DNA of 32,537 nucleotides from Flavobacteriaceae bacterium (GTDB lineage Bacteria > Bacteroidota > Bacteroidia > Flavobacteriales > Flavobacteriaceae), in contig CANCFZ010000003.1 in NCBI GenBank assembly GCA_947377425.1, positions 1 to 32,537 on the forward strand, in the 5' to 3' direction. Both the position numbers and the translations under genes were made by a program. The notes under the pieces were generated by a model that did no database searches, had not been told where the DNA came from, and saw only the letters and a list, made by a program, of their open reading frames with translations. This document shows positions 3 to 4,935 of the stretch, piece by piece (the stretch's first letter is position 1; every line of letters starts with the position of its first letter).

Positions 3-335
3 AAAAATAAAATATTTGCCATGTTTCCATTAGAAGATTCTGCCGTAGAAACGTCTGGTAGTTATGAAAAATATGTGATTTTTAATGGAATTAGATATTC
101 ACATATAATTGATACTCGAACGGGCTATCCAGCTCAAGGTTTGGTAAGCGTATCTGTTTTTGCAAAAACAACCGAAGTTGCAGACGCACTAGCCACAGGA
201 GTTTTTGTATTAGGAAAAGACAAAGGAATGGAACTTGTAAATAAATTACCAGGAATAGGTTGCATCATGGTTGATGATAAAGGCAAAGTCTATTCTTCGA
301 AAAACATTGATTTAAAAAACTATAAAAATGAATAA
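3..335 (+). CDS. apbE: FAD:protein FMN transferase (ApbE family), C-terminal part; 5' end outside window
   Basis: Frame is open to the left edge; motifs YSHIIDTRTGYPAQGLVSVSVFA and ADALATGVFVLG typical of the ApbE C-terminal half. The ATG at 21 is probably internal. Confidence 0.88.
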   Translation, partial: KNKIFAMFPLEDSAVETSGSYEKYVIFNGIRYSHIIDTRTGYPAQGLVSVSVFAKTTEVADALATGVFVLGKDKGMELVNKLPGIGCIMVDDKGKVYSSKNIDLKNYKNE

Positions 336-537
336 ATACTTAGTCTTAATTTTATTTGCAGCATCTATGACTTCATGTGTTGCTGTTAAAGAATATGAAA
401 AAGAATTGATTAATGATCCCGAAATGAAACTAGGAGCCAAAACATCAGAAAAATATGAAGTTACTTTTCAAGTATATAGAGAAGCTGCTGCTGGAGCAAA
501 CGGAGGAAAATCTGGCGGAGGTTGTGGTTGCAATTAA
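328..537 (+). CDS. DUF4266-type small lipoprotein with Cys-containing C-terminus (GGGCGCN)
   Basis: 69 aa, lipobox-like MTSC after a hydrophobic N-terminus, DPEMKLG core, C-terminal SGGGCGCN; overlaps the apbE stop by 8 nt; sits between ApbE and DUF3570. Confidence 0.8.
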   Translation: MNKYLVLILFAASMTSCVAVKEYEKELINDPEMKLGAKTSEKYEVTFQVYREAAAGANGGKSGGGCGCN

Positions 538-550
538 TTATTATTAATCA

Positions 551-1981
551 ATGAAAAAAAATATTTTAATATTTGCCATTTTTAGTTCAATCGTTTCATT
601 TTCACAAGAAAAAGTAAAAGATACCATAAAAAAGTATAAAAAACCTGTATTAGAAAATGTAGAAGCCGACATATTAATGAGTTATTATAAACAAGATGGA
701 GTTCACTCAGCAGTTTCTGGCGGTATGGGATCAGAAAAACTTAAAGATTTTGCTACTAATATTACGGTTGCAGTACCAATGAATGATGATGATGTTTTAA
801 CTATTGATACTGGAATTTCGGCATATACATCTGCTTCTTCAAGTAATATAAATCCGTTTAATAGTAATAGTTCAACGTCTGGTGCTTCTGGTCACACAAC
901 AACTACAACTTCGCCTCCTTATGGAACACCATGGTTGGCATCTTCTGGGGCATCTGCATCTGATCAGTTAATTAGCTTGAGTGGAAATTACAGTCATAGT
1001 AGCAACAATAGAAACTTTATATGGAATGCAGATGTTTCTGTTTCCAATGAATTTGATTATACTTCATTTGGTTTTGGTGGAGGAATCACAAAATTATTCA
1101 ACAAGAAAAATACTGAATTGAGTTTAAAAACTAATATATATCTTGATAAATGGCGTCCAATTTATCCAACAGAATTGCACGAATATGCTAAATATGGAAA
1201 TTCATTTCAAAATAATGGTTACTTAAATGGAGTTACAATTTATAATCAAAATGGAAATGCAACAACGTCATATAAACCCATAAAGTTTACAACATTAGAT
1301 ACAGAAAAGAGAAATTCATATTCTGTTTCTTTTAGTTTTTCGCAAATTGTTACGCGCAAATTACAGTTTTCTATTTTCTTTGACTTATTACGACAAGAAG
1401 GATTGTTGTCAACTCCTTATCAAAGAATTTACTTTGCTGATGTTGCTAATTATTATATCGGACAAAAACAATATATTTCTGATTATGAATCTTCTTCCAA
1501 TATAGGTGTTTATAGATTAGCCGATGATATTGAGCGTTTACCAAGTTCAAGAGTGAAATTACCAATAGGTTTTAGAGCAAATTATTATATAAATGAACGA
1601 TTTAAGTTAAGAACTTATTATCGCTATTATACAGATGATTGGGGTATTTCTTCACAAACTGCAAATATTGAAATCCCTATTAAATTAAATGATAAATTTA
1701 CAGTTTATCCAATGTATCGTTATTATACTCAAAACGCGTCTAAATATTTTGCTCCATTTGAACAACATTTATCTACAGAAACCTATTATACATCGGATTA
1801 TGATTTGTCAAAATTCATAACCAATCAATATGGATTTGGTGTTTCTTATGTAGATATTTTTACTAATTTCCATTTGTTTGGATTTGGATTAAAAAACATT
1901 GATTTTAGGTATAATAATTATCAAAGAAATGATGGTTTAATAGCTAATATTATTACATTTGGGTTTAAATTTATTCAATAA
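551..1981 (+). CDS. DUF3570 domain-containing protein, predicted outer-membrane beta-barrel-like
   Basis: Signal peptide MKKNILIFAIFSSIVSFSQ, ADILMSYYKQDGVHSAVSGGMGSEKL, DTGISAYTSASSSNI motif, alternating aromatic beta-strand pattern, C-terminal FGFKFIQ; adjacent to DUF4266 and ApbE. Confidence 0.82.
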   Translation: MKKNILIFAIFSSIVSFSQEKVKDTIKKYKKPVLENVEADILMSYYKQDGVHSAVSGGMGSEKLKDFATNITVAVPMNDDDVLTIDTGISAYTSASSSNINPFNSNSSTSGASGHTTTTTSPPYGTPWLASSGASASDQLISLSGNYSHSSNNRNFIWNADVSVSNEFDYTSFGFGGGITKLFNKKNTELSLKTNIYLDKWRPIYPTELHEYAKYGNSFQNNGYLNGVTIYNQNGNATTSYKPIKFTTLDTEKRNSYSVSFSFSQIVTRKLQFSIFFDLLRQEGLLSTPYQRIYFADVANYYIGQKQYISDYESSSNIGVYRLADDIERLPSSRVKLPIGFRANYYINERFKLRTYYRYYTDDWGISSQTANIEIPIKLNDKFTVYPMYRYYTQNASKYFAPFEQHLSTETYYTSDYDLSKFITNQYGFGVSYVDIFTNFHLFGFGLKNIDFRYNNYQRNDGLIANIITFGFKFIQ

Positions 1982-1992
1982 AACTAACTATT

Positions 1993-2658
1993 ATGGGTAA
2001 AATTTTAATTATTGAGGATGAAATTGGTATTTCAAATTTTTTAAGTCAAGGTCTTGAAGAAGAAGGATACACAGTTCTTGTGGCTGCTGACGGATTAAAA
2101 GGCTTAGAAATGGCAACAACTAAGTCAGTAGATTTAATTCTACTAGACTGGATGATACCTAATATATCGGGGCTTGAGGTATGCAAAAAATTTAGAGAAA
2201 AGGACAAAACTACTCCAATAATTTTTTTAACTGCAAAAGATACAATTCAAGAAACTATTGTAGGATTAAAAGCGGGTGCTAATGATTATATAAAAAAACC
2301 TTTCAGTTTTGACGAACTTTTAGAAAGAATAAAAGTTCATTTTAGAAAAAACAATGATAATGAAATATTAACATTGGGTGCTATTAAAATTGATATGTCA
2401 AAACGTCAAGTTTTTTCAGAAGATAAAGAAGTGGCATTAACACAAAGAGAATTTGAATTGTTAACCTATTTAATTAAAAATAAAGGTAGAGTTTGTTCAA
2501 GAACCGAAATAATCGAAAAAGTTTGGAATATTTATTTTGAATATGACACAGGTGTTATTGATGTGTTTATGAATGCGTTAAGAAAAAAATTAAATATAAA
2601 TAAAGATAATGATTGTATAAAAACAATACGAGGAGTAGGCTATATTGTTAACGACTAA
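1993..2658 (+). CDS. OmpR/PhoB-family DNA-binding response regulator
   Basis: Receiver motifs (ILIIEDE, LLDWMIP, LTAKD, KPF) and winged-helix region (LTQREFELLTYLIKNKGRVCSRTEIIEKVW...IKTIRGVGYIV). Confidence 0.95.
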   Translation: MGKILIIEDEIGISNFLSQGLEEEGYTVLVAADGLKGLEMATTKSVDLILLDWMIPNISGLEVCKKFREKDKTTPIIFLTAKDTIQETIVGLKAGANDYIKKPFSFDELLERIKVHFRKNNDNEILTLGAIKIDMSKRQVFSEDKEVALTQREFELLTYLIKNKGRVCSRTEIIEKVWNIYFEYDTGVIDVFMNALRKKLNINKDNDCIKTIRGVGYIVND

Positions 2659-2663
2659 ATTGA

Positions 2664-4049
2664 ATGAACAAATTTTCCTTAAAAAATAGAATTGCTTTTT
2701 TCTACATTATTTCAGCAGCGATGTTGATTTTTGTGGTCTTCTTTTCAATTTATAATATTGTATCATTAACTATGAACAATAAGGTCAATGAACATATAGA
2801 TTTTGAAGTCAAAGAATATAAAGAAAAAATAAGAATTGGAGAAAATAATATTGAACTGATAAATCCAGAAGAGTGGTTAAAAAGAGAACATAATGAAGTA
2901 TCTGTTGACCCTGTTTTTTTGCAAATTACTAACAGTGTTGGAACTGTTATAGAAACATCAGAAAATTTAAAAAGTAAAAACTTATTATTTAACTATAAAC
3001 TACTCAAGGACAAAGTAACAGATATTAAATTATCTGGTAAATCGGTTAGGCAAATTCAAGTTCCTCTATACTATAAAAATAAAATTAATGGTTATATTAT
3101 TGTTGCTGTTTCTATGGAAGAAGCAATTTTAATTATAGAAAAATTAAAATCAATACTATTTGTAATTTTTCCAATTGTACTTTTATTTTTGTTTTTTATT
3201 GCTCAATTTATTGCTGGTAGAAGTATTAAACCAATTAACGCAATTATTACTACTTCTAATGCAATTACAAATGATAATTTAAAATCTCGAATTCCTTTAC
3301 CAAGAAATAGAGATGAATTATTTACTTTAACAAAAACGATTAATAATTTGTTAGATAGGGTGGAAAGTACTATTGAAAGAGAAAAACAATTTACATCAGA
3401 TGCTTCTCATGAACTTAGAACACCTTTAGCAATCATTAAAGGTACATTAGAAGTATTAATAAGAAAACCAAGAAACCCAGAAGAATACCAAGAAAAAATT
3501 ATTTTTTGTATATCCGAAGTCGATAGAATAAACAATTTAGTAGATCAATTATTACTTTTAGCTCGATTTGAAAATCAAAAATTATCATTAAATATTGAGC
3601 ATATTAACATTAACGAATGTGTTGCTGAATCAATAAATAGATTTAAAAATAAAGCTAAATCAAAAAATATTATTGTTGTTAAGAAATTTCCAAAAGAAGA
3701 GCTTTACGCTAAAACCGATGGCTATTTTTTAACAATAATTTTACACAATTTAATATCTAATGCCTTGAAGTACTCTAAAGATAATGGACAAGTAGAAGTT
3801 GTTATAGAAAAAAATGATTATAAGACTATTGTAAAAATCATTGATAATGGAATAGGGATTTCTTCTGATGAAATTGGTAAAGTTTTTAACTCATTTTATA
3901 GAACTAAAACATCAACAAATCATCCAGAAATTAAAGGTATTGGATTAGGGTTGTCAATAGCAAAACGTTTGTGCGATATATTATCAATTACTATAACAAT
4001 TACAAGTAAAGAAAATATTGGAACCACATTAGAATTAAGCATATCTTAG
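2664..4049 (+). CDS. Sensor histidine kinase (two TM, HAMP, HisKA, HATPase)
   Basis: H-box FTSDASHELRTPLAIIKG, N-box LHNLISNALKYS, G-boxes DNGIGIS and GIGLGLSIAKRL; 5 nt downstream of the response regulator. Confidence 0.95.
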   Translation: MNKFSLKNRIAFFYIISAAMLIFVVFFSIYNIVSLTMNNKVNEHIDFEVKEYKEKIRIGENNIELINPEEWLKREHNEVSVDPVFLQITNSVGTVIETSENLKSKNLLFNYKLLKDKVTDIKLSGKSVRQIQVPLYYKNKINGYIIVAVSMEEAILIIEKLKSILFVIFPIVLLFLFFIAQFIAGRSIKPINAIITTSNAITNDNLKSRIPLPRNRDELFTLTKTINNLLDRVESTIEREKQFTSDASHELRTPLAIIKGTLEVLIRKPRNPEEYQEKIIFCISEVDRINNLVDQLLLLARFENQKLSLNIEHININECVAESINRFKNKAKSKNIIVVKKFPKEELYAKTDGYFLTIILHNLISNALKYSKDNGQVEVVIEKNDYKTIVKIIDNGIGISSDEIGKVFNSFYRTKTSTNHPEIKGIGLGLSIAKRLCDILSITITITSKENIGTTLELSIS

Positions 4050-4099
4050 TAAAATATTATAATTGATTTATTTTTGTCTAAATTTTAAGAATTCAAATT

Positions 4100-4609
4100 A
4101 TGAATGATGCACATTTACACATGGTTGTTAATCACTTTCCAATTATTGGTTCAATTTTTGGATTAGGAATTTTAATAGCCGGACTTTTATTGAAAAATAA
4201 TACTGTAAAAAATACAGCTTATTGTTTATTTGTAGTGGCTGCAATTTTTGCTGCTGTAAGTATGGCTACAGGAGATGGAGCCGAAGAAATGGTTAAAGAT
4301 ATGCCTAATATTGGTCGTAAAATAATTCATGATCATGAAGAAATGGCTGAAAAATTAGCACTCTTTTTATATTTATTAGGTGTTATTTCGTTACTTGGAA
4401 TTTATACAAATATAAAAAACCATTCTAAAGCAAAATTAATTTCATTTCTAGCTTTAACAATAGCATTTGTAACAGTTTTTCTAGCTAAGGGAACTGGAAC
4501 TAGTGGCGGCGAAATTCGTCATACTGAAATTAGAGCTAATGCTACTCCAGCACTTAATGCAAATCAAAAAGACACAATGCCGCCCGAGAATAAAAGCGAT
4601 GAAGATTAA
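4100..4609 (+). CDS. DUF2231-like integral membrane protein
   Basis: Four hydrophobic segments; N-terminal MNDAHLHMVVNHFPIIGSIFGLGIL resembles the DUF2231 HxxxVHFP motif. Confidence 0.6.
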   Translation: MNDAHLHMVVNHFPIIGSIFGLGILIAGLLLKNNTVKNTAYCLFVVAAIFAAVSMATGDGAEEMVKDMPNIGRKIIHDHEEMAEKLALFLYLLGVISLLGIYTNIKNHSKAKLISFLALTIAFVTVFLAKGTGTSGGEIRHTEIRANATPALNANQKDTMPPENKSDED

Positions 4610-4642
4610 TTTAATTATAAAACCTTTATTTTGACAGCATAT

Positions 4643-4688
4643 AAAAAGATGTGTTTAGAAAAAATATTTTTTCTAAACACATCTTTTT
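4643..4688. terminator. Perfect 46-bp palindrome, likely bidirectional intrinsic terminator
   Basis: AAAAAGATGTGTTTAGAAAAAAT / ATTTTTTCTAAACACATCTTTTT between convergent genes ending at 4609 (+) and 4774 (-). Confidence 0.8.
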
Positions 4689-4773
4689 TTCGATTACAAT
4701 TTTGTTTTGGTAATAAGATTAATCATAATAAAATCAACCTAATGACAAAATAGTTTTTAAGTATCCTAACTTG

Positions 4774-4911
4774 CTAGTCTTTTTTGTTTTTATTACTTCC
4801 CATCATGAGAAAAATTGCGCCAACTAATCCTATGATTACTAATGCAAAAACTCCTATCATGATGAATGCTCCATTGTTCCAAGAATATAATGGAATTGTT
4901 AATTTCGTCAT
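4774..4911 (-). CDS. Small single-pass membrane protein (45 aa), not in ORF track
   Basis: Reverse-strand translation MTKLTIPLYSWNNGAFIMIGVFALVIIGLVGAIFLMMGSNKNKKD*; one hydrophobic helix then a lysine-rich tail; own promoter-like elements upstream and shared terminator downstream. Confidence 0.75.
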   Translation of the reverse strand: MTKLTIPLYSWNNGAFIMIGVFALVIIGLVGAIFLMMGSNKNKKD

Positions 4912-4935
4912 AAGAATTGGTTTTTAAAGGTTTGT

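Follow-up and report, generated by a model that had tools for sequence, protein, structure and literature searches.

Why should genes for protein flavinylation share a tight gene run with a two-component system (TCS) and a DUF2231-like membrane protein? The question is raised by the left end of a 32,537-nucleotide stretch of a Flavobacteriaceae bacterium (assembly GCA_947377425.1, contig CANCFZ010000003.1, forward strand; the window). An initial annotation had read the genes at 3-4609 as an envelope redox or metal-handling module controlled by its own embedded sensor and regulator. The envelope redox/metal-handling reading was supported by our analysis, and we consider it reasonably probable that the locus is one metal-responsive operon for flavin-bearing outer-membrane electron transfer under a metal-type TCS.

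Gene organization of the locus

Open reading frame (ORF) calling detected six plus-strand ORFs at 3-4609, with the coordinates, overlap and gaps noted before. They encode proteins of 110, 69, 476, 221, 461 and 169 aa in gene order; the first two overlap by 8 nt (328-335), and the later gaps measure 13, 11, 5 and 50 nt. ORFs, Pfam matches and a terminator scan, which found two terminator-like sites against 0.2 in shuffled sequences, bear out the description of six packed same-strand genes followed by a strong terminator. The word "fused" in the earlier title was wrong, as the genes are separate and adjacent. The features are as follows:

3-335, plus strand: C-terminal 110 codons of apbE (FAD:protein FMN transferase; FMN, flavin mononucleotide), open at the contig start; Pfam ApbE, positions 181-265 of 266, E = 1.4e-26
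328-537, plus strand: DUF4266 lipoprotein; Pfam DUF4266, positions 1-50 of 50, E = 4.7e-19
551-1981, plus strand: DUF3570, predicted outer-membrane beta-barrel and ApbE substrate; Pfam, E = 1e-39, with AlphaFold and Foldseek
1993-2658, plus strand: OmpR-type response regulator (RR); Pfam Response_reg and Trans_reg_C
2664-4049, plus strand: sensor histidine kinase (HK); Pfam HAMP, HisKA and HATPase_c
4100-4609, plus strand: DUF2231-like four-helix membrane protein; Pfam DUF2231 (PF09990), 26.1 bits against a gathering cut-off of 26.4
4644-4694, plus strand: intrinsic terminator closing the operon, with a 20-pair stem (4644-4687) and a T tail

Contig C3, at whose start the window lies, belongs to a 2.3-Mb draft genome that is 76% complete, and extension upstream, as the initial annotation had advised, recovered both the rest of apbE and a thioredoxin-like gene. 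The missing 5' part of apbE (217 codons, matching ApbE profile positions 2-178) sits at the very end of another contig of the assembly, C100 (L004 1-651, minus strand). The thioredoxin-like gene, which ends one base before apbE, encodes a 147-aa protein with a leader peptide, the sequence SDWCGPC and a Thioredoxin_7 domain (PF13899). The earlier list was thus right in its six genes and incomplete at the 5' end. In the relative L129 (CANGCT010000003.1, a Flavobacteriaceae metagenome-assembled genome), whose DUF3570 is 85% identical to the window protein, a single contig carries the order thioredoxin-ApbE-DUF4266-DUF3570-RR-HK-DUF2231. Since L129 reads NP-MN-KNK over the break, about 4 nt appear to be missing between C100 and C3.

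ApbE, DUF3570, DUF4266 and PF13899 therefore occur together here (Pfam, with the joined order confirmed by L129), as in a known set of gene clusters. The main text of Méheust et al. (2021; PMC8238504) finds these four families grouped together hundreds of times, with DsbD in some clusters and without it in 316, and reports VIT1 in 25 clusters.

A two-component system and metal exporters accompany one DUF3570 subtype

We found DUF4266 in 34 of 296 genomes sampled from the class and in 172 of 300 from the genus, which is probably Flavobacterium, and compared 94 loci and a further 80 named ones, with ORFs called mechanically and labelled by phmmer. DUF3570 proteins of the genus were divided by their score to the window protein into type I (at least 500 bits) and type II (below 300 bits). 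The four-gene core was kept in most of the loci surveyed. In a genus sample comprising the 60 best-scoring of the 172 hits and 4 others, the RR and HK genes lay directly downstream of the core in 34 of 45 type I Flavobacterium loci versus 0 of 19 type II loci. The kinase pair is not found generally across Bacteroidetes but characterizes, within Flavobacterium, a single DUF3570 subtype. We accordingly rejected the idea that DUF4266/DUF3570 clusters as a rule include the TCS; beyond type I Flavobacterium it occurs in a few relatives, e.g., Formosa L169, where it lies upstream.

The best NCBIfam match of the RR was the heavy-metal regulator TIGR01387 (212.4 bits; cut-off, 279.2) and that of the HK the heavy-metal sensor kinase TIGR01386 (197.9 bits; cut-off, 292.6). 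DUF2231 was often found with the TCS-bearing type I loci, and metal exporters were present in the same gene run in 30 of the 34. These included CusA/CzcA resistance-nodulation-division (RND) proteins, which scored above the TIGR00914 cut-off and have an outer-membrane efflux domain fused to them, a cation diffusion facilitator (CDF) between RR and HK, VIT1, and ferritin-like-VIT1 fusions, the ferritin-like N terminus of which is our reading of the sequence, Pfam marking VIT1 only. The label CusA (Cu/Ag type) was set aside, as the DFGxxxDxxxxxxE signature of the exporters points to what we take to be the CzcA-like class. The longest versions, each on a single contig (L138 and L154), run thioredoxin-ApbE-DUF4266-DUF3570-RR-HK-CzcA-CzcB-VIT1-DUF2231, with DUF2231 last, and L157 has the full gene order with a ferritin-like-VIT1 protein. 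In the window and in L129, L132, L153 and L191, the TCS and DUF2231 are present without an exporter, which we read as loss of the exporters in the window lineage, leaving DUF2231.

VIT1 handles iron or manganese. After the superfamily, the closest named models of the CDF protein were MamB/MamM, FieF and MntE, and on these two grounds Fe(II)/Mn is our first, weakly held guess for the metal. Might the module instead serve metal uptake, i.e., reductive iron assimilation through VIT1-type transporters, and not defense against excess metal? VIT1 genes adjoin several type II cores, and uptake is proposed for the 25 VIT1 clusters in the main text of PMC8238504. The genes that follow the type I TCS, however, are of export type (RND CzcA/CusA, CDF and ferritin-like-VIT1 fusions), and sequence does not settle the direction of VIT-family transport. 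We regard the uptake explanation as doubtful.

Two neighboring arrangements were observed in addition. A 125-aa secreted protein ending in SIWLPPKLF lies between HK and CzcA in L131 (12578-12952) and at equivalent places, recurring in Flavobacterium; it had no Pfam or NCBIfam match at the thresholds used. In another family (L049, L056, L053, L060, L063 and L066), the surroundings of the core include VIT1, a membrane protein resembling cytochrome b, a Rieske protein and an RR-HK pair of lower similarity; here the module may draw on another source of electrons and another regulator.

A direct repeat upstream of the thioredoxin gene co-occurs with the regulator

OmpR/PhoB-type regulators bind 11-base direct repeats. 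Reading of the sequence upstream of the thioredoxin genes revealed a direct repeat with an 11-base period. Among 62 distinct TCS loci, 58 had the pattern TTAAn6CTTAA within the 300 bases upstream (shuffled sequences: mean 1.4, maximum 4), and in loci without the TCS it was found in 6 of 46 of type I and 7 of 38 of type II. Among loci outside the discovery set, the repeat occurred in 24 of 25 with the TCS versus 9 of 49 without it (p = 5e-11); the same held-out test within the genus gave 24 of 25 versus 9 of 26 (p = 4e-6), relatedness being ignored in both p values. Two spacer positions that the pattern does not force, TT, were conserved at 94% and 100%. With TT required, the refined repeat TTAAnnTTnnCTTAA was detected in 55 of 64 loci with an RR orthologue and 2 of 83 without one; among 770 control regions, taken from in front of other genes at these loci, 6 had it. 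The genome under study carries the copy TTAAGATTGACTTAA on C100 (L004 1192-1206), 96-110 nt ahead of the thioredoxin start codon.

A genome-wide regulon for the repeat was considered and rejected: a stricter pattern occurred 7 times in the draft genome versus 8 times for a reversed control. The surroundings of the six other copies do not resemble metal or redox promoters, and the one on contig C134 shares that contig with a second apbE, not its promoter. As the pattern shows no genome-wide excess, control looks local. The claim that the embedded regulator controls the operon is supported by co-occurrence of the regulator with an operator-like repeat, and is not proven.

These data also bear on whether the TCS and DUF2231 are mere neighbors, leftovers of a separate metal-efflux locus downstream of a redox operon over which they have no control. 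A TCS beside exporters is a common arrangement in itself, and the core stands without a TCS in most Bacteroidia. On the other hand, the gaps around the RR gene in the window are just 11 and 5 nt, the repeat lies upstream of the thioredoxin gene and not chiefly ahead of the exporters, where 9 of the 34 long gaps preceding CzcA contain it, and it is mostly missing where the regulator is missing. We therefore think chance adjacency unlikely, and favor one operon under its own regulator.

A similar but distinct repeat with another spacer, TTAA..n6..CTTAAG, was observed upstream of the thioredoxin gene in type II loci without a TCS (L035, L107, L112, L113, L122, L125 and L127). It is possibly the site of another regulator; type II repeats with a differing spacer were counted separately.

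DUF3570 is a predicted ApbE substrate and outer-membrane barrel

The initial annotation had held that DUF3570 has no known function and had proposed DUF3570 and/or DUF4266 as ApbE clients. The former statement has been out of date since 2021, and the proposal is right for DUF3570 but was already known: the main text of PMC8238504 describes flavinylation of the Chlorobium luteolum DUF3570 at two motifs, by coexpression and mutation, and leaves the function of this modification uncertain. No further paper naming DUF3570 was found in the literature searched. The corresponding features of the window protein are as follows:

827-838, plus strand: site A, T93-S94-A95-S96, predicted FMN attachment at S96, end of strand 3
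878-889, plus strand: extra motif S110-G-A-S113 in a loop insert, lineage-specific, present in some close relatives only
944-955, plus strand: site B, S132-G133-A134-S135, predicted FMN attachment at S135, just ahead of strand 4

In an alignment of 164 DUF3570 proteins, S96 was Ser in 164/164 and S135 in 163/164, and A95 was also invariant, so that sites A and B form the conserved pair. The motifs at 132-135 and 110-113 are exact SGAS, and TSAS at site A, with Ser for the Gly of the published motif, is found in most Bacteroidia sequences examined. The draft genome, at its 76% completeness, yielded one DUF3570 copy and no FMN_bind protein; one DsbD_TM protein was present, on contig C14, outside the locus.

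An AlphaFold model built on a 61-sequence alignment predicts a barrel of ~16 strands (mean predicted local distance difference test [pLDDT] score, 86), and the protein has an N-terminal hydrophobic leader. The best PDB matches listed by Foldseek were the outer-membrane barrels FadL, OmpG, OpdK and AlgE (E ~1e-9, with low TM-scores of 0.3-0.4 of the query); by sequence, no solved structure was found for DUF3570 or DUF2231. DUF3570 is thus a predicted outer-membrane beta-barrel. In known barrels, both chain ends and the short turns are periplasmic and the long loops lie outside. Sites A and B flank the strand 3-4 loop of the model, which is on the long-loop side, so both flavin sites are probably in one extracellular loop. 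In the alignment of 164 proteins, columns with at least 90% conservation made up 37 of 199 in the presumed outer loops and 39 of 203 in the strands. Since outer loops of barrels usually vary, this equal conservation suggests that the outer-loop side probably does the chemistry.

DUF3570 is duplicated within the operon in L140 and L073 (F. cheniae) and in L109; the L109 duplication comprises a DUF4266-DUF3570 pair, and in L073 and L140 one DUF3570 copy follows the RR gene. The second ApbE of the genome under study, fused to TPR repeats, lies at 3-1673 on the plus strand of L212 (contig C134) beside a convergent set of YceI-like, cytochrome-c-like, DUF5777 barrel and tRNA_anti-like proteins (1717-4916, minus strand), perhaps another flavinylation-associated envelope cluster.

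DUF4266 looks like a redox lipoprotein

The DUF4266 protein of the window has the lipobox MTSC, exactly 53 residues from the lipid-bearing Cys to the end, and the terminus GGGCGCN, which contains one further feature:

523-534, plus strand: Cys-Gly-Cys-Asn C terminus of DUF4266, candidate redox pair

The CxC was present in 144/144 relatives and the ending GGCGCN in 143/144, and in 137/144 a Cys after a small residue starts the last 53 residues. From its sequence, DUF4266 looks like a redox lipoprotein, and the constant anchor-to-cysteine length would fit an electron carrier limited by its reach.

DUF4266 could also be flavinylated by ApbE, given that it adjoins apbE in nearly every locus. The window protein, however, contains no [S/T]xA[S/T] motif, its closest conserved stretch being GAN instead of GA[S/T], and the main text of PMC8238504 gives DUF4266 a possible thiol redox role and does not count it among the substrates. 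For want of the motif we rejected DUF4266 as an ApbE client, and its flavinylation seems very improbable. Of the two clients proposed initially, DUF3570 stands, with both sites conserved and an experiment on the C. luteolum homologue.

Another explanation concerns envelope thiol/disulfide repair, in which the thioredoxin and the CxC lipoprotein would keep surface proteins reduced and the flavin would be a by-path oxidizing thiols. The invariant CxC fits it, as does the fact that the thioredoxin scored best in NCBIfam, though below cut-off, against the disulfide reductase DsbH. Most DUF3570 proteins, though, have no cysteine or one (none in the window protein), which argues that they are not themselves disulfide substrates. 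We consider such repair quite unlikely and prefer electron transfer to the DUF3570 flavins.

In several families (L042, L047, L050, L061 and L067), a secreted barrel-like protein of 220-240 aa with a GAGWWVYDRGQ motif was observed between thioredoxin and ApbE, and in some loci a Rieske protein gene is adjacent to the thioredoxin gene on its upstream side.

DUF2231 carries invariant His and Glu residues

The "DUF2231-like" wording used initially fits the near-cut-off score of the window protein; the relative L154 scored 27.5 bits. Foldseek returned no match at E <= 0.001. Residues H5, H7, H12, E62, H79, E80, E81, E84 and H141 are invariant, and from the model we place these His and Glu residues at one membrane face. 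As the loops at the other face are rich in lysine, we take this one to be periplasmic. DUF2231 is plausibly a metal-binding accessory with a putative His/Glu metal site. A role as a transmembrane b-cytochrome electron donor, considered on account of the five invariant histidines, was rejected, as the modelled helix limits put them at one face and not mid-membrane.

Just past the operon terminator, a minus-strand ORF (4774-4911) encodes a 45-aa single-span membrane protein (MTKLTIPLYSWNNGAF...).

A possible mechanism and the points against it

The regulator-operator pair and the metal-export context in relatives suggest what the kit may be for. ApbE would modify the DUF3570 chain in the periplasm, ahead of outer-membrane folding, attaching two FMN groups as established by experiment for the homologue only, and the loop bearing sites A and B would then face the cell exterior. 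DsbD may reduce the periplasmic thioredoxin, which would pass electrons to the CxC tail of the outer-membrane-anchored DUF4266 and from there to the two FMNs on the barrel; these would in turn reduce an outside acceptor, e.g., a metal ion or metal complex. The HK may sense metal excess or metal-linked envelope stress and turn on both the redox and the export genes. We infer the direction of the electrons and the identity of the metal.

In a bolder form of this scheme, surface redox chemistry and efflux would make up a single metal-defense program: a heme-free wire across the outer membrane would run from thioredoxin through a lipoprotein of 53-residue reach, with its glycine-rich, CxC-ending tail at the barrel, and deliver electrons to a pair of FMNs on the outer rim of DUF3570, and in Flavobacterium a metal-sensing kinase would switch on this wire together with export. 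We offer it as speculation with a rather small chance of being correct.

Several points weigh against the metal-responsive operon. Both RR and HK fall short of the heavy-metal family cut-offs, no exporter lies in the window, and the genus sample was not random. Loci beyond Flavobacterium have mixed neighbors and usually lack the TCS, so that the core can do without metal control. The repeat statistics ignore relatedness, and the motif was first seen in part of the set. The loop with the flavin sites is poorly modelled (pLDDT < 50 at 105-120 and 132-135), its orientation follows from general barrel rules, and site A would have to be modified at TSAS in place of the published [S/T]GA[S/T].

Comparison with known systems

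So far as the literature searched shows, the new elements are the subtype-specific linkage of a metal-type TCS and exporters, the operator, the topology of the barrel and the fixed length of the lipoprotein. Through the regulator, a recognizable operator and metal-export neighbors, the job of DUF3570-type flavinylation, uncertain according to PMC8238504, becomes directly testable. If the flavins face outward, the locus would provide a heme-free electron route through a Bacteroidota outer membrane.

The closest known system is the "DsbD system" flavinylation cluster described in the main text of PMC8238504, with which the locus shares the four gene families in one operon, the two attachment motifs in DUF3570 and the CxC end of DUF4266. 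Compared with that cluster as described there, the locus has no adjoining DsbD and adds a TCS, an operator repeat and DUF2231, and relatives of the window add CzcA/CusA RND, CDF and ferritin-like-VIT1 exporters. When that main text was searched by term, "efflux," "barrel" and "Flavobacterium" were absent, and "two-component" appeared solely in a reference title.

The CusRS/CzcRS/CopRS heavy-metal TCSs (TIGR01387/TIGR01386) are the top-scoring family for RR and HK, and in relatives the TCS directly precedes CzcA-type RND genes; they differ in that the pair studied here scores below both cut-offs and, in the window lineage, is joined to a flavinylation module without an exporter. The MtrCAB multi-heme porin-cytochrome conduits would be alike if the wire reading is correct, with electrons crossing the outer membrane by way of a barrel and cofactors, but here covalent flavins and a cysteine-tailed lipoprotein would take the place of hemes, and we claim no sequence relation between the two.

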